Source: Clostridia bacterium (GTDB taxonomy: Bacteria > Bacillota > Clostridia > Christensenellales > Aristaeellaceae). From it: 55,121 nucleotides of DNA. The stretch lies in assembly GCA_017938695.1 (NCBI GenBank), contig JAGBBA010000052.1, positions 1-55,121 of the forward strand. Direction: 5' to 3'. A model generated the notes under the pieces. It was not told the origin of the DNA. It saw only the letters and a program-made list of their open reading frames with translations, and ran no database searches. Shown one piece after another: positions 4,104 through 18,931 of the stretch. The position numbers and the translations under genes were made by a program. The first letter of the stretch is position 1. Each line of letters starts with the position of its first letter.

Positions 4104-4203
4104 CCAGAGGCTCTGCCTCTGGACTCCGGGAGGGGCTCTGCCCCTCCACCCCGCTTAAGGGCTCTGCCCTTAAGAATCCCGCGAAGGGCTTTCAGCCCTT
4201 TCG
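4104..4203. repeat. array A: four short hairpins
   Basis: Four stem-loops follow the stop codon. Their stems are CCAGAGG/CCTCTGG (4104-4122), GGAGGGG/CCCCTCC (4129-4147), CTTAAGGG/CCCTTAAG (4154-4174) and CGAAGGGCT/AGCCCTTTCG (4182-4203, one bulge). The first three share the loop CTCTG, and the units are spaced by short linkers ending in CCC. Similar arrays recur at 8.2, 12.5, 12.8, 17.6, 32.2, 43.6 and 48.0 kb. Confidence 0.85.
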
Positions 4204-6327: not shown

Positions 6328-8212
6328 GTATCTCCCGCTTTTGATCGTGGGGGCCATCATCGGCACCTTCTCCATCGTCTTCGTGGTCGCCTACCTGCTG
6401 ATGAAAAACAAAAAAGAGGCCGTGGGTTTCGACCGCCACATGCCCGACGGCGAGATCATGCAGCGCCTTCTGAAATACGCCACGCCTTTCTGGAAGCAGT
6501 TTCTGCTGGTGCTGGTGCTGATGATCATTTCCATCGCCTACGATATCATTTCCCCCATGATCATCGGCAACATTGAGGAGCTGGTGAAGGCTGATTTCGA
6601 CCTGCCCCTGCTCTACAAAATGGTGGTGGGCTACATCCTGCTGCTGCTCGTTTCCATGGGCAGCACCTACCTCCAGGCCATGATCCTGCAAAAGACCGGC
6701 CAAAAGATCCTCTCCGCCCTGCGCCTTGACCTGTTTACCCACATTGAGAGCCTCTCCCACGAGCAGCTGAACCAGATCCCCGTGGGCAAACTGGTGACCC
6801 GCGTCACCAACGACACCAACGCCATTTCCATGATGTTCACCAACATCCTGGTCACCATGGTGAAAAACGTGTTCGTCATTGTGGGCGTGCTGGGGGCCAT
6901 GCTGCTGCTCAACTACATGCTCACGCTGATGGTGTTGTGCTTCGTGCCCTTCGTGATCCTCTTCACGGTGATCTTCCGCAAGTTCTCCCGCGCAGTTTAC
7001 CGCAAGGTGAAGGACGGCACCACCGACATCAACACCTACCTGAGCGAGAACCTTTCCGGCATCAAGATCACCCAGATCTTCAACCGGGAAGGGGCCAAGA
7101 TGAACGAGTTTCTGGAAAAGAGCAACCGCCTCAAGAAGGCCAAGCAGAACCAGATCCTGGTGTTCGGCATTTTCCGGCCCATGGTGTATGTGCTCTACAT
7201 TTCTTCGGTGCTGTGCCTGCTTTACCTGGGCTCCAAGGGCGTGATCCAGAACACCACCTTCATGGGCCAGGCCATCACCTCCGGCACCATCGTGACCTTC
7301 TACATGTATGTGTCGAAGTTCTTCAACCCCATCCAGACCCTGGCCGAGCAGTTCAACATGCTGCAATCCGCCTTCGCCTCTGCCGAGAAGATTTTCACCG
7401 TGTTCGACATGGTACCCGAAGTGGTGGACGAGCCCGACGCCATCGAGCTGGATCACATCCGGGGCGAGATCGAGTTCCGCAACGTGTGGTTCTGCTACAA
7501 GCCCGGCGAGTGGGTGCTGCAGGATGTATCCTTCCACGTGATGCCCAAGCAGACCGTAGCCTTCGTGGGCTCCACCGGCTCGGGCAAGAGCACCATCCTG
7601 TCCCTCATCTGCCGCAATTACGATATTCAGCAGGGGCAAATCCTCATCGACGGCATCGACATCCGCAAGATCAAGATTTCCTCCCTGCGCCGCCACTTCG
7701 GCCAGATGCTGCAGGACGTGTTCCTCTTCTCCGGCACCATCCGTTCCAACATCGTTCTGCGGGAAGAGAGCTTTACCGACGAGGAGATCTGGAACGCCTG
7801 CAAGTATGTGAACGCCGATTCCTTCATCAACAAGCTGGACGGCGGCCTGGACGAGGTCGTCCGCGAGCGCGGCAACAACTTCTCCGCCGGTCAGCGGCAA
7901 CTGCTGTCCTTCGCCCGCACCATCATCCACAAGCCTGCCGTGATGATCCTGGACGAGGCCACCGCCAACATCGACACCGAGACCGAGCTGCTCATCCAGG
8001 ATTCCCTGGAGAAGATGAAGAACATCGGCACCATGCTGGTGGTCGCCCACCGCCTGTCCACCATCCAGCATGCCGACAACATCATCCTGCTCTCCCACGG
8101 CAAGATCCTCGAGCAGGGCACCCACCAGGAGTTGTTGCACAACAAGGGTGCGTACCACCATTTATATACTTTGCAATATAACAAACAGCAACTGGTCAGG
8201 GCTCTGCCCTGA
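6320..8212 (+). CDS. ABC exporter half-transporter, catalytic subunit
   Basis: A 630-residue partner of the upstream gene, overlapping it by 8 bases (ATG 6320; AGGAGGCG about 10 bases before). An extra N-terminal helix (residues 3-25) precedes the six-helix exporter domain, then the ATPase domain from about residue 385. Walker A is GSTGSGKST and Walker B is VMILDEAT, with the catalytic glutamate. The signature is FSAGQRQL, not LSGGQ. Its Walker B site would therefore pair with the good signature of the partner. Oddly, the last residues (RALP) and the stop codon are encoded by a copy of the hairpin repeat at 8195-8213. Confidence 0.9.
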   Translation: MREYLPLLIVGAIIGTFSIVFVVAYLLMKNKKEAVGFDRHMPDGEIMQRLLKYATPFWKQFLLVLVLMIISIAYDIISPMIIGNIEELVKADFDLPLLYKMVVGYILLLLVSMGSTYLQAMILQKTGQKILSALRLDLFTHIESLSHEQLNQIPVGKLVTRVTNDTNAISMMFTNILVTMVKNVFVIVGVLGAMLLLNYMLTLMVLCFVPFVILFTVIFRKFSRAVYRKVKDGTTDINTYLSENLSGIKITQIFNREGAKMNEFLEKSNRLKKAKQNQILVFGIFRPMVYVLYISSVLCLLYLGSKGVIQNTTFMGQAITSGTIVTFYMYVSKFFNPIQTLAEQFNMLQSAFASAEKIFTVFDMVPEVVDEPDAIELDHIRGEIEFRNVWFCYKPGEWVLQDVSFHVMPKQTVAFVGSTGSGKSTILSLICRNYDIQQGQILIDGIDIRKIKISSLRRHFGQMLQDVFLFSGTIRSNIVLREESFTDEEIWNACKYVNADSFINKLDGGLDEVVRERGNNFSAGQRQLLSFARTIIHKPAVMILDEATANIDTETELLIQDSLEKMKNIGTMLVVAHRLSTIQHADNIILLSHGKILEQGTHQELLHNKGAYHHLYTLQYNKQQLVRALP

Positions 8213-8264
8213 CAACCCGCCAGGGCTCTGCCCTGGACCCGCTTAAGGGTCTTCGACCCTTAAG
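8195..8264. repeat. array B: three short hairpins
   Basis: The stems are GTCAGGG/CCCTGAC (8195-8213, containing the exporter stop codon), CCAGGG/CCCTGG (8220-8236) and CTTAAGGGTC/GACCCTTAAG (8242-8264). The first two have the loop CTCTG. Same family as array A. Confidence 0.85.
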
Positions 8265-8304
8265 AATCCCGTTCGGGGATGGCATACAAGTTGGTTTTCT
8301 TGCT

Positions 8305-8339
8305 GGGGTCACGGCGCGAATACGGTCGCGCCGCGACGC
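8305..8339. repeat. GC-rich palindromic repeat, copy 2
   Basis: Identical over 35 bp to 4245-4279, and likewise downstream of a hairpin array. No gene lies in 8213-8386. Confidence 0.85.
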
Positions 8340-8350
8340 GAGAGAGTTAC

Positions 8351-8388
8351 AAAAAAATGGACGGCCCGTGAGGGTCGTCCATTTTTTT
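8351..8388 (-). terminator. terminator of the glycan-use operon
   Basis: Hairpin ATGGACGGCCC / GGGTCGTCCAT (8357-8367 with 8372-8382, one G-U), flanked by A7 and T7, so it works on both strands. It directly follows the GH5 stop codon on the minus strand and can also end read-through from the ABC exporter. Confidence 0.85.
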
Positions 8389-10603
8389 ATTGGTATTGCC
8401 AGTTGCTTAGGGTGAAGGTGATGGTGATGGTTCGGGGCTTGGGGTTGTTGACGAAGGTAATTACCTTGTCAGGGCTAGCGGTTACGTCGGGGGTGATGGA
8501 GCCGTCCCAGGCGTTGATGGGATCGTTGGTGTCCAGCTTGCCGCTGGATTTCAGGGCGGATTTGGGGGCGTGCTCGGTGATGGTCAGAGGCACGCCGTCC
8601 AGCAGGATCTCATCGTAGTGGATGTCGCAGGAAGCCAACACCTTGGTATTGCCGTCCACGTCGTAGATATAGATGGCACCGGTGCCGTTCAAGCTCAGCA
8701 CACCGGCGGCCTTGGCCTCCTTGGTGGAGTCGTTGATGGCGTCATAGGTCAGGGTGTAGGTGCCGTCGCCGGAGACCGCGATGGTGGGGCTGGTTTCGTT
8801 CATGTAGTAGTTGTGGGCAGCGTCGTTATAGTAGACGCCGATGCCCAGGTTCAAGGGGGTAGCTTCGGCCTGGGCGGGTGCTTCCGCTGCGCCGCCGTTG
8901 CCCACGGTGATGGTCAGGCTCTGGGTGCAGCCGCTGGCGGAAACAGCCTTTACCTCGGCCACGCCGTCGGCCACAGCCACCAGCTTGCCCAGGCTGTTCA
9001 CCGTCACCACGCTGGCATCGCTGGAAACGAAGTAGATGCTGTCGGTGTGATCCGCCGGAGCAACCGTCACAGCCAAGTCAGCTGTTTCGCCCACGGCCAG
9101 GCTGGTCTTGGCCAGGCCGAAGGTGATGCTGCTCACGGGCTTCTCCGTTTCAGCCTTGCCCACCACCACCACGATGCTGTCCTGCACGCTGCCGTTGGCG
9201 GAGCGCACCGTTACCTGGGCAGAGCCCTGGGCTTTGCCGTGGAGCACGCCGTCCTTGCTGACGGTCACCACATCCGGGTTGGAGGTGGCGTACAGCAGGG
9301 TGTCCTGGGCGTCCGCAGGCTCTGCGGTGGCCGTGAGAGAAGCATAGGTGCCGCTTGCCAGATTCATCATGGGGGCGGCGATATCCACCTTGGTAAAGGC
9401 TTCCGTGGCCGGAGCGGTGTTGCCCTTGCTGTGCTCGATCTTCACGATATTGCGGCGCAGGTTGCCGGAAACGGGATTGTAATAGCCCCGAAGAATGCCC
9501 TTGATGATATCCGGATACAGCTGCTTTCCGGTACCGCGGTCGAACAGGGAGAAGGTGTAGTCCGGGTCCTGGGCCGGGTCATACCAGCCGATATCCCAGC
9601 ACACGGGTACGATGCCATTCAGCTGGCACATGCGGTTCATGGCCTCGTAGTAGTACACGCGGTTGCCGATGTTATTCTTGTTCACCGCGCCGTACTCGCC
9701 CAGCACCACCGGCACGCCCTTGTCCACAAAGGTGGCCTTGAGCTTTTCCATCAGCTTGCTCAGGTTCAGGGCCTTTTCCTGGTTCCACAGGGTGGCGTTC
9801 ATGTTGGCCTGGATGCCAAAGGAATAGTCATAATCGTGCACCGACAGCATGATGTGCCCCGCCGGGTCACTGGGCAGGGTGAAGGCATACTTCTCGTTCA
9901 GCACGTTCTGGATATTGGTGTAGCGGGGCACCACGCTCAGCCAGCGTTTGGCATTGTTGCCGCCGGTGGCGCGCACCGTATCCACGAAGAGCTGGTTCAG
10001 CATCTCAATGGTGCGGAAATCCTTCTGGTAGCCTGCCTCCGAGGGATCGTCGCCGCAGACCTCGTTCATGGCCTCGAAGATCACATGCTCGTCATAATCC
10101 CGGAAGGTTTCGGCGATCTGCTGCCACACGGCGGCAAACTTGCGCTTCACTTCCTCCAGCTGCTCGCCCTCGTAGGCGATGCGCAGCCAGCCGGTCTGCT
10201 CCGCGCCGTCGTGATGCAGGTTGATGATCACATACATATCCTGCCGCACGGCGTAATCGGCAATGTCCTGCACACGAGAGAGCCAGGCCTCGTCGATCTT
10301 GTAGCCGTTGCTATCGTCGATCATGGTGCCCCAGGTCACCGGCAGGCGCATGGTGGAAAAGCCTGCATCATGCACGGCGTCCACCAGCTTTTGCGTGGTG
10401 ATGGTGGGTTGCCACACGGTTTCCCCGGGGGTAAAGCCGCTGTGGCCGTCCATGGTGTTGCCCAGGTTCCAGCCAGTGCCCATATCGCGGGTGATCTCCT
10501 CCGCCGTCAGGTCGCGGAAGGGCATGGCGTAACCACCTTCCTCCGCCACCGCCGCCAGGGGCAAAAGGCACAGGGCCAGCAGCAGCGCAAACAGTTTTTT
10601 CAT
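8387..10603 (-). CDS. secreted GH5 endoglycanase with two Ig-like domains and a C-terminal module
   Basis: A 738-residue secreted enzyme likely to cut beta-glucan or related plant polysaccharide. Signal peptide 1-20 (cleavage after AVA). The GH5 barrel spans about 28-375, beginning with TGWNLGNTMDG as in GH5_4-type enzymes. H130-H131 are in the active site, E181 (FEAMNEV) is the acid/base and E303 (VLGEYGA) the nucleophile. Two bacterial Ig-like (Big_2) domains follow at about 403-482 and 488-568, then an Ala/Glu linker. The C-terminal module (about 586-738) looks related to the repeats of the protein at 15407-17515. AGGAGG precedes the start. It is the last gene of the operon and lies behind a terminator-like hairpin. 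Confidence 0.9.
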   Translation of the reverse strand: MKKLFALLLALCLLPLAAVAEEGGYAMPFRDLTAEEITRDMGTGWNLGNTMDGHSGFTPGETVWQPTITTQKLVDAVHDAGFSTMRLPVTWGTMIDDSNGYKIDEAWLSRVQDIADYAVRQDMYVIINLHHDGAEQTGWLRIAYEGEQLEEVKRKFAAVWQQIAETFRDYDEHVIFEAMNEVCGDDPSEAGYQKDFRTIEMLNQLFVDTVRATGGNNAKRWLSVVPRYTNIQNVLNEKYAFTLPSDPAGHIMLSVHDYDYSFGIQANMNATLWNQEKALNLSKLMEKLKATFVDKGVPVVLGEYGAVNKNNIGNRVYYYEAMNRMCQLNGIVPVCWDIGWYDPAQDPDYTFSLFDRGTGKQLYPDIIKGILRGYYNPVSGNLRRNIVKIEHSKGNTAPATEAFTKVDIAAPMMNLASGTYASLTATAEPADAQDTLLYATSNPDVVTVSKDGVLHGKAQGSAQVTVRSANGSVQDSIVVVVGKAETEKPVSSITFGLAKTSLAVGETADLAVTVAPADHTDSIYFVSSDASVVTVNSLGKLVAVADGVAEVKAVSASGCTQSLTITVGNGGAAEAPAQAEATPLNLGIGVYYNDAAHNYYMNETSPTIAVSGDGTYTLTYDAINDSTKEAKAAGVLSLNGTGAIYIYDVDGNTKVLASCDIHYDEILLDGVPLTITEHAPKSALKSSGKLDTNDPINAWDGSITPDVTASPDKVITFVNNPKPRTITITFTLSNWQYQ

Positions 10604-10616
10604 AACGCAGCCTCCT

Positions 10617-10647
10617 AAAAAGGGGAAGAGCCCTGCGACCCTTCCCC
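10617..10647 (-). terminator. terminator or attenuator between binding-protein gene and GH5 gene
   Basis: On the minus strand, GGGGAAG..CTTCCCC (10641-10647 with 10622-10628) is followed by five Ts, which run directly into the AGGAGG of the GH5 gene (10611-10616). It should lower GH5 expression relative to the upstream genes. Confidence 0.7.
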
Positions 10648-10662
10648 ATGGTTACGATGATT

Positions 10663-12447
10663 TTACTTGGCCAGAGCTTCCTGCTCCTGCTGCAGCTGCC
10701 ACTTGGTGGCTGCTTCGCCGCGGGACCATTCGATGCACTCGTCGTAGCCGTAGCTGTTGCACTGGCTGCGCATGTTGCGGATGTGCATGTCGAACTCGCC
10801 GTCAGCCTTGGCGTAGATGGCGCGCCAGCTGTTGGTGGTGATGGCCTTGGTCACCTGGCCCCACTTCACTTCCAGGGTGTCGTCGCGCACGGACTCGGAA
10901 TAGGGCAGGTCGGGCATCACGGTGTAGTTGTTCACCTTCTCGAAGTAGGGATCAACCAGGGACACGCCGGACCAGTTGCGCCAGTCTTCCTGGATGGCAT
11001 AGCTGGCAGCAGCCTGCTCGGAAACCCAGGTATCCTTGTTGAAGGCCTCGCCCAGCTTGGAATCGGGAGCCAGCATGTCGCGGGCCAGGGTGGTGTTGTT
11101 GATCTGCAGGCAGCCGTCGTTGAAGTTGCCGGACAGGGTGTAGCTCTTGCTAGTGTAGGGGGACACCCACTCCACGCCGTTCAGGTCGTGCTTGGAGTCC
11201 ATGTTGCAGGTCTTGCCCAGCTCGGTGAAGTACAGGCCGCCGTCCTCGTTGTAATCCCACATCAGACCACGGGGGCCGTACCACATGGTCATGGAGCCTT
11301 CGGGGGTAGCCAGGAAGTCCATGATGGCCAGGCACAGCTCGGGATACTCAGTGTCAGCACCAACGGTCCACACGCGGTTGCCGCCGATGTTGCTGAGGCC
11401 GTACACGATGGGGCAAGCCGCATCGGGCACGCGTGCATACATCATCTTGCCGTCGTTCAGGTGAGCCTCGGTGTTGTACAGCATGGAGGAAGCATAGTTG
11501 AAGATGCCCCAGAACACGCCGCCGTTCTTGACCTTCTGCGCCATTTCGTCATAGGTCTGGGTCATGGAGTTGGGGTCCAGCAGGCCAGCGCGATACAGCT
11601 TGTTGAAGAACTTCAGCATCTCGATGTAGGGGCTGTCGCCGGCCACAGCGGGATCATCCTCAGCCAGGCAGTCGATGTAGTTGCCGGTCTTGGGATCATA
11701 GTGGCCCAGGCCCAGCTCGTCATAGCCGTAGTAGGCGGTGCCCAGGGCCTTGACGTACATCACCATGTTGCCGTCCCAGTCAGGCCACAGGGAGGCAGCG
11801 TAGGTTTCGTTGCCCAGCTCGTCCTTGGGGCAGATTTCCTTCATCTTGACGAACACGTCGTACAGGTCGTTCAGATCCTTGATCTCGGGATAGCCCAGCT
11901 CCTTGTACAGGTCCCAGCGCAGATCCCAGGAGTACATGAAGGACTTGTGGGAGCCTTCCTGCAGAGCCACGTCCATGCCGATGCCGTACACCTTGTCGGT
12001 GCCGGAGATGGCGCGGTTGGAGGACAGGGCAGCACCGTAGTTCTCGAAGATGTAGGGCGCATAGACGGGGCCCAGGTCATCCTCTTCCCAGTCCAGCAGC
12101 AGGCCCTTGTCGATGGCGTTCTTGTAGTCAGCACCGTTGGCGCCCCAGATCACCAGGTCGCCCAGGTTGCCGGAAGCCACGCGGGTCTCGTAGGTGCCGT
12201 CCATATCGGGGATGATGTTGATCTCCACGTTGAACAGGTCCTTGAGCAGAGCTGCACTCCAGCCGGTCTGGATGCCGGAATAGTTGGCCAGCTGGCTGTA
12301 AGCGGTCAGGGTGATGGTTTCATCCTCGAGGGGATAGAACTCATACAGGTCGCTGGTGACCTTGTAGTAGGGCACATCTTCCGCCAGGGCAGAGGCGCAG
12401 CCCAGCAGCATCGACAGTGCCAGCACGAGGGACAGGAACTTCTTCAT
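10663..12447 (-). CDS. extracellular solute-binding protein of a sugar ABC transporter (LipO/LplA type)
   Basis: A 594-residue secreted binding protein that should capture an oligosaccharide and pass it to the two permeases upstream. The N-terminus MKKFLSLVLALSMLLGCAS is a signal sequence. LLGC is a near-lipobox, so it may be a lipoprotein, though cleavage at ALA-ED is also possible. Length and the tryptophan- and aspartate-rich body fit the large LipO-like family. Start 12447 is chosen: AAAGGAG lies 8 bases before it, whereas the upstream ATG at 12465 would put the ribosome site inside the gene. It is separated from the permease genes by 404 bases of hairpin repeats and from GH5 by a terminator. 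No ATPase gene is in the operon; a shared MsmX-like ATPase is usual. Confidence 0.87.
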   Translation of the reverse strand: MKKFLSLVLALSMLLGCASALAEDVPYYKVTSDLYEFYPLEDETITLTAYSQLANYSGIQTGWSAALLKDLFNVEINIIPDMDGTYETRVASGNLGDLVIWGANGADYKNAIDKGLLLDWEEDDLGPVYAPYIFENYGAALSSNRAISGTDKVYGIGMDVALQEGSHKSFMYSWDLRWDLYKELGYPEIKDLNDLYDVFVKMKEICPKDELGNETYAASLWPDWDGNMVMYVKALGTAYYGYDELGLGHYDPKTGNYIDCLAEDDPAVAGDSPYIEMLKFFNKLYRAGLLDPNSMTQTYDEMAQKVKNGGVFWGIFNYASSMLYNTEAHLNDGKMMYARVPDAACPIVYGLSNIGGNRVWTVGADTEYPELCLAIMDFLATPEGSMTMWYGPRGLMWDYNEDGGLYFTELGKTCNMDSKHDLNGVEWVSPYTSKSYTLSGNFNDGCLQINNTTLARDMLAPDSKLGEAFNKDTWVSEQAAASYAIQEDWRNWSGVSLVDPYFEKVNNYTVMPDLPYSESVRDDTLEVKWGQVTKAITTNSWRAIYAKADGEFDMHIRNMRSQCNSYGYDECIEWSRGEAATKWQLQQEQEALAK

Positions 12448-12481
12448 GATGATTTCTCCTTTCAATTATCTATATCGCCGT

Positions 12482-12586
12482 GTCAGGGCTCTGCCCTGAC
12501 AACCTGCTTAAGGGATTGCATCCCTTAAGAATCCTTGCGTCAGGGCTCCGCCCTGACAACCCGCTCAAGGGATTTCATCCCTTGAG
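12482..12586. repeat. array C: four short hairpins
   Basis: The stems are GTCAGGG/CCCTGAC (12482-12500), CTTAAGGGAT/ATCCCTTAAG (12507-12529), GTCAGGG/CCCTGAC (12539-12557) and CTCAAGGGAT/ATCCCTTGAG (12564-12586). The second and fourth units differ by a T-A to C-G swap in both arms, so pairing is kept. Confidence 0.85.
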
Positions 12587-12626
12587 AATCCCTTTCGGGC
12601 TACCCCTGCTTGACACCTGCCATGCA

Positions 12627-12734
12627 GGGGTCCCGCCGCGCAACGGGCGCGACGCGACGCATAACCGCGGCATCTCCGGGCCTGCGCTGTTGCTTTCCCC
12701 GCGTCGCGGCGCATCCTTCATGCGCCGTGACCCC
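12627..12734. repeat. inverted pair of GC-rich palindromic repeats
   Basis: Copy 3 (12627-12660, GGGGTCCCGCCGCG..GACGC) and copy 4 on the other strand (12701-12734, GCGTCGCGGCGC..GTGACCCC) face each other around about 40 bp. No gene is seen in the 404-base gap 12448-12851. Confidence 0.75.
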
Positions 12735-12777
12735 CCCCACTCGAAGACCGCCTTCCCGGCCATCCCCGAATGGGATT

Positions 12778-12851
12778 CTTAAGGGTCGAAGACCCTTAAG
12801 CGGGAGTCCAGAGGGCAGCGCCCTCTGGTGGGGTCCAGGGGCAGAGCCCCT
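12778..12851. repeat. hairpins in reverse orientation before the permease stop
   Basis: CTTAAGGGTC/GACCCTTAAG (12778-12800), CCAGAGGGC/GCCCTCTGG (12808-12828) and AGGGGC/GCCCCT (12837-12851). The linkers read GGGAGTCC, the reverse complement of the GGACTCCC seen in array A, so this block is inverted. Confidence 0.75.
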
Positions 12852-13769
12852 TTAGCCCTTGACGGCACCGAGCATGATGCCTTTGACGAAGTAGCGTTGC
12901 ATGAAGGGGTAGACCAGAAGGATCGGGATGATGGTCACCATGGACACGGTGTACTTGATGACCTTGCTGGAGAGCATGTTCTGGGCAGCCTGGGTGCTGA
13001 GGCCGCCGGAGCCGGACACCAGGGCCGCCAGGTTGGAGGACTGGTTGAGGTACACGTACAGGCGGTGCTGCAGGGTGTACATGTCGGGGCGGTTGCTCAT
13101 CAGCAGCAGGGAATCCTGGAAGGAGTTCCAGTTGCCCACGGCACCGAAAATGGCGATGGTGGCCAGGATCGGCACAGACAGGGGCAGGATGATCTTGGTG
13201 AACACGGTGGGGGTGTTGGCGCCGTCGATGACCGCGGATTCCTCCAGGGAGGCCGGGATGGACTCGATGTAGGTCTTTACCAGAATGATGTTATAGGGTG
13301 CGATCATGCCCGGCAGGATATAGGCCAGGAAGTTGTCCGTCAGGCCCAGCATCAGCATGTTCATGTACCAGGGGATCAGGCCCGCATTGAAGTACATGGT
13401 GATGACCAGCGCGCGGTACCACAGGGAACGCTTCCACATCTTCTGCTTGGTGACCAGATAGCCAGCCCAGGCGGAAACGATCACCATCAGCGCAGTACCG
13501 ATAATGGTGCGCGCCACCGTTACGATGACGGAGGAGCCCAGGTCGGCCACGTCCTTCAGGGCGATGTAGTTATTGAAGTGGATGCCCGTGGGGAAGAAGT
13601 TCACCAGGCCGGAAACCACCTTCTCGTTATCGGAGATGGTGTTGATGAACAGGTAGTAGAACGGGAACACGCACAGGAGCGTGAACAGGCCGAAGAACAG
13701 GTATACGCAGGTATCAAAGACGATATCGCTCGGCTTGCGGGCGATGTGATTGCGGACTTTCTTGCTCAT
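12852..13769 (-). CDS. sugar ABC transporter permease, LplC/MalG type
   Basis: A 305-residue inner-membrane permease with about six transmembrane helices. The cytoplasmic ATPase-docking (EAA) loop reads EESAVIDGANTPTVFTKIIL. It pairs with the permease encoded 15 bases upstream and with the binding protein at 10663-12447 to import an oligosaccharide (CUT1 family). A GAGGG ribosome site precedes the start. The C-terminus MQRYFVKGIMLGAVKG is typical of LplC. Confidence 0.92.
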   Translation of the reverse strand: MSKKVRNHIARKPSDIVFDTCVYLFFGLFTLLCVFPFYYLFINTISDNEKVVSGLVNFFPTGIHFNNYIALKDVADLGSSVIVTVARTIIGTALMVIVSAWAGYLVTKQKMWKRSLWYRALVITMYFNAGLIPWYMNMLMLGLTDNFLAYILPGMIAPYNIILVKTYIESIPASLEESAVIDGANTPTVFTKIILPLSVPILATIAIFGAVGNWNSFQDSLLLMSNRPDMYTLQHRLYVYLNQSSNLAALVSGSGGLSTQAAQNMLSSKVIKYTVSMVTIIPILLVYPFMQRYFVKGIMLGAVKG

Positions 13770-13784
13770 TTCACTCGCCCTCCC

Positions 13785-15251
13785 TTAAATGATGCTCTCG
13801 CCGCGGATGGCCTTCGAAATGCCGTTGGCACCGAAGAGCAGCGTCACGCCGATCAGGGACTTGAACACGCCCACCACCGTGGAGATGGGGATCAGGCCCT
13901 GCTTGATACCGATGTTGTACACATACAGGTCCAGCACTTCGATCACGTCCTTGTTCAGGGCGTTTTCAAACACCAGATACTGATCCATACCGTTGGACAG
14001 GATGCCCGCGATGGACATCAGCAGCATCACGCAATAGGTGGGCACCAGGCCGGGAATGGTGATGTGCCAGATGCACTGGTAGCGGTTGGCGCCGTCCACC
14101 TTGGCGGCCTCGTAGAGCTGCTGGTCGATACCGGCAATGCCCGCGATGTACACGATGGCACTCCAGCCCAGGCCCTTCCAGGTGCCCCACAGGAGCATTT
14201 TGATCCAGGTGCCGTCGGGGTTGGCCAGGTAGTCGGTATTCGCGCCGGTGATCTGCATCACGTTGCGCAGGAAGCTGTTGATGAAACCGTCGGTGGAGAA
14301 GATGGCAAAGGCGATGGCGTACACCAGCACCCAGGAGATGAAGTTGGGGATGGTGGTCAGCGTTTGCACAATGCGCTGGAACTTGGTGGAGCGCACCTCC
14401 GCCAGCAGCACGGCAAAGGCAATGGGGAACCAGCTGGTGATAATGCCCAGGCCGGACATGATCAGCGTGTTCCGCAGAACGCGCACCAGGTCGTTGCGGG
14501 TGGCGGCGTTCTCAAACAGGTAGGTGAACCACTTCAGGCCCACGAACTTGTCGGCCGTCAACGCATCGCCAATCTTGTAATCAAAGAAGGCGAAACGCCA
14601 GCCGTAGATGGGCAGATAGCAGAACACAAAGGCCAGCAGAAGCACGGGCAGCATCATCAGGAAAAGACGGTACTTTTCTTCCATTTCCATCTTCTCCTCC
14701 ACCTGCTTGGGCAGGCGGAGCCACACGATGATGGAGGTGATGAAGATCAGCGCAGCCACCACGGCGAAAATGTAGATGCCGTTGGGGAAGTTGGGCTCGA
14801 TCTTGTCAGCCTTTTCCAGGTTGATGAAGATGTTGTACACATGGTTGATAACCACCAGGCCGCCAGCCATCAGCACCGAGCCGACGGTGGGCATCACGAT
14901 ACCCACGCGCTTCATGCGGTTGTTGCCCAGGGACATGCAGCCGCCGATGGCGCACAGCACCACGCCCGCCAGGATCACCGCTGCACCGGCCATCAGCATG
15001 TGGAAGTGCTGGGGCAGCACCCACTCCATGCGCAGGGGGCGGCCCAGGCTGTTGGTCAGCGTGTCGTAGGAGATGGCGGTGGTGAACAGGGACGCGTTCT
15101 CGTTGATCTTCATGGAGATACGGCCCGGGTTGAACTGCGGCAGGAACACCATCAATCCCAGCAGAAGGATCAACACGCGGTTCAGGCGCAGGATATGGTT
15201 GGGCTTGTGGGCAGCGGTAAGGCGGTTGCCACGGACGGCTGTTGCTTGCAT
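13785..15251 (-). CDS. sugar ABC transporter permease, LplB type, with four-helix N-terminal extension
   Basis: A 488-residue permease, against about 300-320 usual for LplB. The LplB core starts near residue 195 (FLMMLPVLLLAFVFCYLPIY) and contains the EAA loop EAAKVDGANRYQCIWHITIP. The extra N-terminal 190 residues have four likely helices (about 26-40, 85-105, 116-136, 158-178), with an outer-facing stretch of about 45 residues between the first two. I do not recognise this part. Start 15251 is chosen: GAGG sits 7 bases upstream; an in-frame TTG at 15293 lacks a good site. It is the second gene of the operon, after the secreted repeat protein. Confidence 0.85.
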   Translation of the reverse strand: MQATAVRGNRLTAAHKPNHILRLNRVLILLLGLMVFLPQFNPGRISMKINENASLFTTAISYDTLTNSLGRPLRMEWVLPQHFHMLMAGAAVILAGVVLCAIGGCMSLGNNRMKRVGIVMPTVGSVLMAGGLVVINHVYNIFINLEKADKIEPNFPNGIYIFAVVAALIFITSIIVWLRLPKQVEEKMEMEEKYRLFLMMLPVLLLAFVFCYLPIYGWRFAFFDYKIGDALTADKFVGLKWFTYLFENAATRNDLVRVLRNTLIMSGLGIITSWFPIAFAVLLAEVRSTKFQRIVQTLTTIPNFISWVLVYAIAFAIFSTDGFINSFLRNVMQITGANTDYLANPDGTWIKMLLWGTWKGLGWSAIVYIAGIAGIDQQLYEAAKVDGANRYQCIWHITIPGLVPTYCVMLLMSIAGILSNGMDQYLVFENALNKDVIEVLDLYVYNIGIKQGLIPISTVVGVFKSLIGVTLLFGANGISKAIRGESII

Positions 15252-15360
15252 GCTGCTACCTCGCTTTCTGCTTCGTTTGGCCCCGTTTGCCAATTCAACT
15301 CTTTAACGTCCCGGAAGGGCGCTAAAGAGCAGAATCGGCCATGAGGCAAAATATATCCAC

Positions 15361-15392
15361 GGCGCGCTCCCGCCCGAAGACGGGAGCGCGCC
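15361..15392 (-). other. intercistronic hairpin
   Basis: 12-bp perfect GC-rich stem GGCGCGCTCCCG / CGGGAGCGCGCC with an 8-base loop, between the first and second genes of the operon. No T tract follows on the minus strand, so it probably protects the upstream mRNA end or marks a processing site. Confidence 0.65.
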
Positions 15393-15406
15393 GGGAAAGG
15401 TTTACA

Positions 15407-17515
15407 TTAGTCGGCCAGGCCGGACACGGTGAAGGAGATCACGATGGTCTCATTCGCGCCGGGCATGGTGTAGGCAACATCAGTGCCGACCTTGGAGTCA
15501 TACTCGTCCACCAGGCAGATGCGGGCATAATCGCCGCTGGTGTTCACATAGGTCATGGACTGAGTGCGGCCCTCACCGAACTTCACGGTCACGTCGGAGA
15601 TGGTGATGACGCCTTCCTTCACAGCCTTGGAAGGAATGTCGGTAGACACATTCAGCATACGGAAGAAGGTGTCGGGGCCAAAGCCCATCTCGCCGGTGGT
15701 CAGGGACACGCTGTAGGTGCCGTTGCCGGTCACAGCAGCATCCACATAGGTGCCGCCGTAGTTCACGGCCACGTCGCCGTCCCAGCCAGTCATCTGGCCG
15801 AACCACTTGCCGTCTTCAACGTCCTTGCCGTAGGAAGCATCGTCCCAGGTGTTGCGGAAGATGTAGTTCTCGGTCTGGAAGCCGAAGTAGGCGTTGTAAT
15901 CAGCAGCGATAGCAGCAGCCTTCTCGTCCTCGGTCATGGGAGCAACGCCTTCTTCCACAGCGGGCTCACCGTAGATGTACTCGAAGGTGATCTCGATGGA
16001 GGAAACCTCAGCCAGAGCGTCCTTGCTCACAACGATGGGAGCAGCACCCTCCAGGTTGCCGTCAGCGCGGCGGGCGTCGGCGGGCAGGTCGGAAACCCAC
16101 TCGTTCATGATGTTGGCACGGGTCTCGATCTTGTCGTCGGAAGAGGTGTAGGCCTTGCCCAGCTCGATGGCAGCGCCGTTGACCTTGATTTCCTTCACGT
16201 CGATGAAGTAGCCGGGGAAGGTCTTTTCACCGGTCTTGATGCCCAGGGCGACGAAAGCCACGCCAGCAGCGGGAGTTTCGAATTCCAGGCCAACGGTGTA
16301 GGTGCCGGGGCCGTCAACGGTCACGTTGGTGGCCTTCACGCCGGCATACTCGTTGCCGTCCAGCCAGTACTGCATGGTCCAGGCGGAATCAGCATACATG
16401 ATGTAGGCGGTATCGGTGATGGGCACCAGGGTGAAGTCGATCTCGTAGGTCTTCACTTCTTCGAACGCAGCGCGGTCAACGATCTGGGCGGAAGCACCTT
16501 CCACAGAGCCGTCGAAGGAACGGACGGTGGCGTCGTTCTCGGGCACAGCGGGAACCCACTCGTTCCACACGTTCATACGGGTTTCCACCTGGTCGTCAGA
16601 GGAGGTGTAGCCCTTGGTGAAGGCAACGGACTCGCCGTTGATGCGGATGTCGTTGATCTTCAGCATCATGCCGGGGAAGGTGTTCTCGCCCTTCTTGATG
16701 CCCAGAGCGGTGAAGGCCACGCCGGCAGCCTTGCCATACTCGGTGGTGGTGAAGTCCAGGCCGACGGTGTAGTCGCCAGGGCCGGTGATGGTAGCATTGG
16801 TCACGGTCACGCCGCCGTAATCATTGCCGTCCAGCCAGTACTGACGCTCCCAGGTGGCATCCGCGAACATGATGTAAGCGGTGTCCTGGCCGTACTTCAT
16901 CAGGTCAAAGTCGATCTCGATGCTCTTCACAGCAGCGAAAGCCTCTTTGTCCACAATGATCCAGTTGGCGTCATCCACATAGCCGTCGAAGGAACGGGCG
17001 TCGGCGGGCAGGTCGGAAACCCACTCGTTGTAGATGTTCATGCGGGTTTCCACCTGGTCGTCAGAAGAGGTGTAGCCCTTGTCCACTTCAATGGCCTCGC
17101 CATTGACGCGGATCTCGTTGATCTTCAGATAGTGGTTGGGGAAAACCTTCTCGCCGTCCTTCAGGCCCAGCGCAGCAAAGGCAACGCCAGCGGACTCGGC
17201 TTCGAATTCCAGGCCAACGGTGTAGCTGCCGGTTTCGGTCACGTCCACGGTGGTGGCCTTCACGCCAGCATACTCGTTGCCGTCGTGCCAGTACTGGGCA
17301 GACCAGTCGGCATTGGCATACATGATATAAGCGGTAGCGGCGGCAGCTTCCTCAGCAGGAGCCTCGGCGGCTTCCTCAGCGGGAGCTTCCTGGTTGTTGT
17401 ACTCGCGCAGCTGAGCCAGCAGCGCAGCCAGGTCGGTGGTTTCCTCAGCCACCGCGCTGCTGAACATGGTGAACACCATCATGGCGGCCAGCAGCAAGGA
17501 AAAAATCTTCCTCAT
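15407..17515 (-). CDS. secreted protein with three tandem ~150-residue repeats and a fourth divergent one
   Basis: A 702-residue exported protein of unknown function, first in the glycan operon. Signal peptide 1-23 (cleavage after AVA), then a Pro/Glu/Ala linker to about residue 60. Repeats lie at about 61-205, 211-363 and 368-514. Each carries TAYIM(Y/F)A..W..QYW.DGN.Y.GV, then G.YTVGL.F, then ..I..I.(V/I)NG, then YTSSDD..ETR.N..NEWV, and ends in a beta-like stretch. A fourth, weaker copy is at about 549-702 (GNGTYSVSL, ITISDVTVKFGE). The all-beta look and the operon suggest a carbohydrate-binding surface or soluble protein; no catalytic motif is seen. AAGGAGG lies 7 bases before the start. 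I recognise no named family. Confidence 0.85.
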   Translation of the reverse strand: MRKIFSLLLAAMMVFTMFSSAVAEETTDLAALLAQLREYNNQEAPAEEAAEAPAEEAAAATAYIMYANADWSAQYWHDGNEYAGVKATTVDVTETGSYTVGLEFEAESAGVAFAALGLKDGEKVFPNHYLKINEIRVNGEAIEVDKGYTSSDDQVETRMNIYNEWVSDLPADARSFDGYVDDANWIIVDKEAFAAVKSIEIDFDLMKYGQDTAYIMFADATWERQYWLDGNDYGGVTVTNATITGPGDYTVGLDFTTTEYGKAAGVAFTALGIKKGENTFPGMMLKINDIRINGESVAFTKGYTSSDDQVETRMNVWNEWVPAVPENDATVRSFDGSVEGASAQIVDRAAFEEVKTYEIDFTLVPITDTAYIMYADSAWTMQYWLDGNEYAGVKATNVTVDGPGTYTVGLEFETPAAGVAFVALGIKTGEKTFPGYFIDVKEIKVNGAAIELGKAYTSSDDKIETRANIMNEWVSDLPADARRADGNLEGAAPIVVSKDALAEVSSIEITFEYIYGEPAVEEGVAPMTEDEKAAAIAADYNAYFGFQTENYIFRNTWDDASYGKDVEDGKWFGQMTGWDGDVAVNYGGTYVDAAVTGNGTYSVSLTTGEMGFGPDTFFRMLNVSTDIPSKAVKEGVITISDVTVKFGEGRTQSMTYVNTSGDYARICLVDEYDSKVGTDVAYTMPGANETIVISFTVSGLAD

Positions 17516-17577
17516 GGTATGTTCCTCCTTTTTTTATCGATCATCACTGCTTGTCTGCAGTGCTGATTACACTTCGG

Positions 17578-17653
17578 CCAAAGGGCTCTGCCCTTTGGAA
17601 ACCCGCCAGGGCTTCCAGCCCTGGACCCGGGCAAAGGGTCTTCGACCCTCTGC
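17578..17653. repeat. array D: three hairpins in the operon's 5' leader
   Basis: CCAAAGGG/CCCTTTGG (17578-17598), CCAGGGCT/AGCCCTGG (17606-17624) and AGGGTC/GACCCT inside GCA..TGC (17631-17653). They fall between the promoter and the first gene, so they are transcribed in the leader. Confidence 0.8.
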
Positions 17654-17701
17654 ACTCCCCTTTCGCGTTCCGCTTGTTCCATTTTCACACGTTTCACGCG
17701 T

Positions 17702-17721
17702 GTTACTTTTGGTGCGTAAAC
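17702..17721. promoter_or_regulatory. putative operator, promoter-downstream copy
   Basis: GTTACTTTTGGTGCGTAAAC. It matches 17772-17791 at 18 of 20 positions and lies about 15-34 bases after the expected transcription start of the minus-strand operon. Confidence 0.65.
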
Positions 17722-17742
17722 GTTTTAGTTGCCGGTATTTAC

Positions 17743-17771
17743 ATAATATACGAGTTAATTCATCTTGTCAA
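17743..17771 (-). promoter_or_regulatory. promoter of the glycan-use operon
   Basis: On the minus strand a perfect TTGACA (17771-17766), 17-bp spacer and TATTAT (17748-17743). The leader to the first start codon is about 220 bases. Confidence 0.8.
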
Positions 17772-17791
17772 GTTAATTTTGGTTCGTAAAC
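17772..17791. promoter_or_regulatory. putative operator, promoter-upstream copy
   Basis: GTTAATTTTGGTTCGTAAAC, directly abutting the -35 box and exactly 70 bp from its twin. The pair brackets the promoter. Confidence 0.65.
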
Positions 17792-17806
17792 AGCAATTTT
17801 TGCTCA

Positions 17807-18931
17807 TCAAAAGACCAGCTGACCGGGCTTGTAGCCGTCGGGGAGTTCTTCCTCCTTGACGAAATGGATATTTTCGTCATAAAGGGTGGGCAAAAAAGCC
17901 CAGTACGGGATCACATCAAACTCGCATCCGTAGCTGCTCTGGCCGAACCAGCCGCCCTCCTTGCCCTTCAGGTTCAGATCGCGGGCAAACTTGGTGCGGT
18001 TGCAGCAGTCGTGGACGGCGATGGGCCAGTTTTCCTCCACGGCTTGCTTCATAAAACGCAGGGTCAAGTCGCGGCTCCACACGGGCGAAAGATATCCCAG
18101 CCGGGTCATGTACATGGGTTCGCCCTCATAATTGGCGATGTTGTTGGGGTTCAGGTGCAGCTCGGCGCAGTTGATGAAATCCAGCCCCGTGGCCAGGATG
18201 CGCTCCTTCTTCTGCTGGAACTTCTCAAAGAAGTCCGGGGTCATGGGGGTTTCGATGCCCACCTTCTTGATGAACCGCTTCGCCAGGGCAATATTGTCGA
18301 TCACCTTGTCCGCACAATTTGTCCCGCCCAGGTTGAAGCGCAGCTCGTCCAGCCCGGCTTCCGCCAGGGCGCGAAGGTTCTCTTCGGTGCAGAGGGTGCC
18401 GTTGGTGTACATATGCTGATGGATGCCCGCCTCATGGAACTTGCGGATCACGCCGTAGTACTTCTCGATCTCCATGAAGGGCTCCAGATACACATAGGAA
18501 ATGCCGGTGGGCTTGGTGTGGATGCTCAGCAGAAGGTCCAGGTCATCCTCGTAGAACTTCGTTCCGCCGATCTCCCACAGCCCGTCGCCGATGGGGGGCT
18601 GGCAGTCCAGCTCGCCGTAGTTATAGCAGAAGCGGCACTCAATGTTGCACTTGTTGGTCTTGCGGATGGCACTCAGCCCCGTGCCCAACAGGCAGGAACG
18701 GCAGCCGCCGGGGAATTTCTCGTCATCGCCCACATAATAGGTACGGCCCTTGAGGCTCTTCAGGCCGGGGATCGCCTGCTTCATTTCCTCCCGGCGGTGC
18801 TCCACAGCACGCTCGATCTGCGCCAGCACCGCATAGGCGATCTCCTGCTGGCGGGGCATCAGGCCTTCATCCTCGGGCAGTGCAGCAAAAAACTCGAACC
18901 AAGCCAGGGCGTCCTTCTTGGAAATGTACAT
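17807..18931 (-). CDS. radical SAM protein
   Basis: A 374-residue protein with the cluster-binding motif CNIECRFC at C95, C99 and C102 (CxxxCxxC), followed by sequence compatible with the radical SAM barrel (GISYVYLEPF, MYTNGTL, ELRFNLGG). More cysteines at 77 and 80 (GGCRSC) and a C-terminal region with CC and a further C could bind a second cluster or zinc. The chemistry cannot be told. GGAGG precedes the start; the promoter at 18959-18987 is divergent from that of the peptidase gene. Confidence 0.85.
   Translation of the reverse strand: MYISKKDALAWFEFFAALPEDEGLMPRQQEIAYAVLAQIERAVEHRREEMKQAIPGLKSLKGRTYYVGDDEKFPGGCRSCLLGTGLSAIRKTNKCNIECRFCYNYGELDCQPPIGDGLWEIGGTKFYEDDLDLLLSIHTKPTGISYVYLEPFMEIEKYYGVIRKFHEAGIHQHMYTNGTLCTEENLRALAEAGLDELRFNLGGTNCADKVIDNIALAKRFIKKVGIETPMTPDFFEKFQQKKERILATGLDFINCAELHLNPNNIANYEGEPMYMTRLGYLSPVWSRDLTLRFMKQAVEENWPIAVHDCCNRTKFARDLNLKGKEGGWFGQSSYGCEFDVIPYWAFLPTLYDENIHFVKEEELPDGYKPGQLVF

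Follow-up and report, generated by a model that had tools for sequence, protein, structure and literature searches.

What can be the function of an exported protein that is built of four related modules, could be assigned to no recognised family and heads a gene run for sugar uptake? This question is raised by a stretch of 55,121 nucleotides (the window), i.e., contig JAGBBA010000052.1 of the Clostridia bacterium assembly GCA_017938695.1 (Aristaeellaceae), where the gene of the four-module protein (modules M1 to M4) stands first in a same-strand run, before two permeases, a solute-binding protein and a glycoside hydrolase of family 5 (GH5). The preferred answer, with a probability of about 0.77, is that the protein is an exported, non-catalytic and multivalent glycan-capture protein, the modules of which would form an undescribed family similar to carbohydrate-binding modules (CBM), working with the GH5 enzyme and an ATP-binding cassette (ABC) importer. 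The initial annotation had already read it as a non-catalytic glycan-capturing protein. That reading has now stronger support than the window alone could give, because the module is also found on GH5 enzymes, the importer genes lie downstream in 56/56 loci and the fold is a beta-sandwich; from these lines we infer binding.

The modular structure was computed and agrees with the three tandem modules of about 150 residues and the divergent fourth copy announced by the initial annotation. M1, M2 and M3 share 54-65% pairwise identity (BLAST E 4e-67 to 3e-57). M4 (residues ~521-702) matches M2 (BLAST E 1e-4) and has no significant BLAST match with M1 or M3. In profile-profile comparisons, the M1-3 profile matches an M4 alignment of 96 rows (96 of 112 rows, cleaned of M1-3 rows) with 84.5% probability across 93 columns, and a second M4 alignment with 82% across 115 columns. 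The AlphaFold2 models of M3 and M4, compared by eye, have an identical strand order and a short helix at the matching place. Export, also claimed earlier, is borne out by a cleavable signal peptide as read from the sequence, after which residues 24-60 read as a linker with many Ala, Glu and Pro residues. No enzyme family is found above its cut-off in the libraries searched. M4-like modules also occur alone in two small proteins with a signal-peptide-like start (L061:6645-7436 and L062:7679-8287).

The neighbourhood is conserved to a high degree. A scan of a named genome collection gave 336 module relatives, of which the best 79 loci were kept; loci were picked by module similarity, thus the counts describe the near lineage. 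A non-GH5 module protein is present in 77/79 loci. Among these 77, one protein carries three standard modules in 59 loci and two in 15 (some are cut by contig ends). For 56 of the 77 loci, at least 6.5 kb of downstream sequence could be used: in 56/56, the genes after the module protein on its strand are, in this order, those of permease 1, permease 2 and the binding protein. A GH5 gene of any kind is found in 38/56 loci. This gene has one C-terminal module in 25 of the 38, is represented by two GH5 pieces (one with the module) in 1, shows no visible module in 5 and is of the window type in 7. It must be noted that 4/6 of the non-window GH5 pieces without module are cut by the locus end. Module-bearing GH5 genes are thus present in 26 loci, downstream and on the same strand in 25/26 and elsewhere in one.

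In relatives, the standard module is localized at the C-terminus of GH5 enzymes. The nearest solved relatives of a module-bearing GH5 (one enzyme searched) are a beta-1,3-1,4-glucanase, endoglucanases and a xyloglucanase. When a GH5 enzyme has an accessory module of such dimensions and fold, it is generally a binding module. GH5 enzymes with the module are also present on two contigs (L142 and L143, one labelled Butyrivibrio), importer genes not being within reach. In a tree of 205 modules, 25/25 GH5-borne copies fall into one clade (FastTree support 0.991). The GH5 slot of the run (8387-10603 in the window, compared with L031-L049) alternates between two GH5 types that are about 34% identical: one has Big_2 domains and a divergent tail, the other a single standard module.

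The GH5 of the window itself has nearest solved relatives named cellulase, endoglucanase, xyloglucanase and beta-1,3-1,4-glucanase. In profile-profile comparison with the module, its tail scores 67% by itself and 93.8% after the related tails of three bridging GH5 proteins (about 1150 residues each) were added; therefore the module is probably present in both exported proteins of the run. In local scans of the bridging proteins, the A1 profile matches 2/3 and the A4 profile 0/3, and the genome search finds 3/3 weakly. There is little direct similarity between M4 and the window GH5 tail (33%, 16%).

The two permeases, binding protein and GH5 that the initial annotation placed downstream are recovered in that order on the minus strand (PF00528 twice, PF13416 and PF00150), and the gene order suggests an operon. 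The partner importer is of the class with two BPD_transp_1 permeases and a solute-binding protein within one gene run. The best NCBIfam models for the permeases are sugar-permease models, with scores far below their cut-offs, so that no substrate is assigned. The solute-binding protein has a lipobox-like LLGC, as read from the sequence; a PDB search at E 0.01 gave no sequence relative for it. The five-gene run contains no ATPase gene.

The AlphaFold2 model of M3 is a confident beta-sandwich. In a fold search, it weakly resembles CBM32 as well as accessory domains found on carbohydrate enzymes. Positions 1, 2 and 3 form largely separate lines in the tree: the nearest neighbour from another locus stands at the same position for 56/60 sampled modules, i.e., 20/24, 14/14 and 22/22 for positions 1, 2 and 3, respectively. 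The positions keep their identity across species, therefore the three copies have been maintained for long. W379, D460, R466, N468, N471, W473 and R482 (M3 numbering) are near-invariant at all three positions and are also kept in the GH5 copies, W379 in 80% of these. This aromatic plus polar set fits what is expected for a sugar-binding site. Among 112 modules, the aromatic columns are W14, W19 and Y41, the next conserved Trp being only W108. Model position 105 is aromatic in 93% of the modules and Met in M3 of the window. In the model, R101, N103 and position 105 alternate along one strand, so they should face one side, a putative binding face.

No known binding-module family fits the module in the libraries searched, which include Pfam and not the CAZy/dbCAN models; within that scope the initial annotation was right to recognise no family. 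CBM65, which binds xyloglucan, is comparable as an accessory module on a GH5 enzyme of a Clostridia genome (L157). It is unsupported by sequence: Pfam CBM65_1 (PF18259) has no match at E 0.1 in 44 modules and none in the window's genome, and hhalign gives 0.3% against two CBM65 sequences. CBM72, the closest in habitat and in position on the enzyme, is described as the C-terminal CBM of the buffalo-rumen endoglucanase C5614-1; its binding region spans 134 residues, is 44% strand according to circular dichroism and binds a broad range of beta-glycans (PMC4725902). It resembles the module in being beta-rich, C-terminal on rumen glycoside hydrolases and tandem in two homologs, and differs by its conserved trio Trp380-Tyr411-Trp423 (spacings 31 and 12), without counterpart in the module (PMC4725902). 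On the basis of these published key residues, which do not fit the aromatic columns of the 112 modules, CBM72 was rejected.

The module is found in 29/150 genomes of the window's family, its own included. The class search gave a match in 5/391 genomes (own included), 3 of the 5 being weak and to modules of the GH5-tail type; the phylum search gave 2/398 (own included), and the other genome is also among the class matches. With such low counts, the module is rare outside the lineage. Hosts of the relatives are mostly uncultured Clostridia, a few being labelled Christensenella, Christensenellaceae, Butyrivibrio, Lachnospiraceae, Hungateiclostridiaceae, Ruminiclostridium, Clostridiaceae and, in one case, Anaerolineaceae. 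Many of their samples are titled deer, sheep, goat or buffalo gut, and one rabbit. Three signal-peptide proteins (L058:7985-10959, L059:5654-7543 and L060:7088-8914) have 1-2 distant module copies followed by a C-terminal region of similar appearance; scanned against Pfam, they have no match above cut-off.

Retention at the cell was considered on 73 multi-module proteins, sorted into heuristic classes by coarse simple rules. C-terminal anchors are represented by an LPXTG-type signal in 3 and a membrane segment in 3. A coiled-coil-like spacer of about 50 to 340 residues separates the N-terminal hydrophobic segment from the modules in 13/73, and a possible lipobox is found in 10/73, 5 of which are also in the spacer class. 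A signal peptide only, with or without linker, is found in 42/73; the N-end is unreadable in 7/73. The stretch ahead of the modules in L097:6426-9449 is coiled-coil-like over about 340 residues. These anchors and spacers suggest surface display in the relatives concerned. In the protein of the window, no anchor is seen, only the signal peptide and linker. An explanation by absence of sortase was rejected, a sortase-family match being present in the window's genome and in 14/18 genomes tested.

The following mechanism would account for these results. The three CBM-like beta-sandwich copies and the divergent fourth would bind plant beta-glucan chains (cellulose, mixed-linkage glucan or xyloglucan type). 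Several binding modules would give avidity, so that the polysaccharide and its fragments might be concentrated near the cell. The co-encoded GH5, with its own distant module copy, would cut the chains. Finally, the oligosaccharides would be taken up by way of the solute-binding protein, of lipoprotein type, and the two permeases, served by an ATPase whose gene lies elsewhere. Ligand, retention at the cell and product import are inferred.

The same data could be read otherwise. The modules might catch short oligosaccharides and pass them to the importer instead of gripping the polysaccharide: the importer is indeed the more constant partner (56/56 loci vs. 38/56 with any GH5). However, a module that is also borne by GH5 enzymes speaks for targeting of the polysaccharide, and three similar sites would suit avidity for a long chain; such a presenting role is considered rather unlikely. 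An adhesin or structural protein, soluble or on the surface and used in host or biofilm contact, would make the neighbourhood unrelated to function. The constant co-location with the importer and the fusion to GH5 are then unexpected, and pilin rows rank no higher than many unrelated rows, hence very little credit is given to this reading.

A cohesin-like scaffold, the repeats of which bind proteins and assemble enzymes rather than glycan, has some anatomical appeal: tandem beta-sandwich modules of about 150 residues, an exported non-catalytic protein and LPXTG in some relatives recall scaffoldins in outline. Against this, the module is fused to GH5 itself, where a binding module rather than a cohesin is expected, and the protein has no cohesin match in Pfam. 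Moreover, cohesin PF00963 is found in 0/12 lineage genomes, including none in the window's, and dockerin PF00404 in 2/12, the window's genome (87.5% complete) not being one of them. A cohesin-type scaffold is unlikely, and only a very small weight is left to it.

Upstream of the gene, the initial annotation had placed a consensus promoter. A site with 11/12 matches does exist, i.e., of high quality, whereas the number of promoter-like sites in 7900-18000 is not above chance (2 found vs. 3.2 in shuffles). Terminator-like sites are also no more frequent than expected (5 vs. 7.2). A 20-nt direct repeat, GTTTACGNACCAAAANTAAC, stands on either side of the promoter-like site; within 3 mismatches, the window's genome has no copy besides these two, and the pair looks like the operator pair of a dedicated regulator. 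Upstream of the genes of 20 relatives, a search allowing up to 5 substitutions gave one poor match only (5 mismatches, L050); a conserved operator is therefore not claimed. Between promoter and start codon, a leader sequence of about 90 bp (17575-17665) is an interspersed repeat, also present at 8198-8260 and 4157-4199 of the window. Counting this copy, the window's genome has at least 42 matches, complete or partial (of 141 candidates, 40 were scored).

Table 1. Coordinates of the features of the four-module protein and its gene run in the window.
Feature	Position	Strand	Basis or remark
Four-module exported protein, 702 aa	15407..17515	-	Open reading frame
Signal peptide, residues 1-23, cleaved between AVA and EE	17447..17515	-	Read directly from sequence
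Module M1, residues 61-203	16907..17335	-	
Module M2, residues 212-361	16433..16882	-	
Module M3, residues 369-511	15983..16411	-	AlphaFold2 beta-sandwich, mean pLDDT (predicted local distance difference test) 97.0
Module M4, divergent copy, residues 521-702	15410..15955	-	AlphaFold2, mean pLDDT 95.3
ABC permease 1	13785..15293	-	PF00528 (BPD_transp_1), E 1.2e-13
ABC permease 2	12852..13769	-	PF00528 (BPD_transp_1), E 7e-10
Extracellular solute-binding protein (SBP_bac_8)	10663..12447	-	PF13416, E 3e-7, 30.9 bits vs. cut-off 27
GH5 enzyme: PF00150, two Big_2, C-terminal module	8387..10603	-	PF00150, 187 bits vs. curated cut-off 23.5
GH5 C-terminal module, probable distant M1-3 copy	8390..8884	-	Profile-profile
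Promoter-like TTGACA-17-TATTAT	17743..17771	-	Consensus scan, 11/12 matches; not functional evidence
Operator-like 20-nt direct repeat, copy 1, immediately upstream of the -35 hexamer	17772..17791	-	GTTTACGNACCAAAANTAAC
Operator-like 20-nt direct repeat, copy 2, downstream of the -10	17702..17721	-	
Terminator-like hairpin, end of run	8351..8388	-	Palindromic with A and T runs, listed on + strand

Systems of this kind are already known; no account of the module family, or of its constant association with an importer in these Clostridia, turned up in the literature searched (partial coverage). In Bacteroidota, the Sus-type surface glycan-binding proteins are non-catalytic and have several binding modules, and their genes accompany those of an importer and of an endo-acting enzyme. 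The system of the window differs from them by an ABC importer instead of SusCD, by different modules and by the absence of a visible lipid anchor. In a gut Clostridium, Sas6 of Ruminococcus bromii is reportedly a multi-module glycan-binding protein; it is said to bind starch alpha-glucans and to be encoded without an ABC importer. A wider proposal can be put forward tentatively, at somewhat less than even odds: M1-3, M4 and the GH5-tail modules may constitute a CBM superfamily that is so far undescribed and has a beta-sandwich variant of its own. The four-module protein may then do the capturing in a conserved system by which herbivore-gut Clostridia capture, cut and import plant beta-glucans; it would be a working counterpart of the Bacteroidota proteins, having evolved alongside an ABC importer and with interchangeable stalks and anchors.

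Uncultured gut Clostridia of such kind are common in ruminants, and few descriptions exist of how they take up plant fibre. A new binding-module family with a constant place beside an importer in the lineage examined would let annotators spot glycan loci whose binding protein the searched libraries cannot name. If the reading is true, the list of non-catalytic capture proteins extends beyond Bacteroidota.
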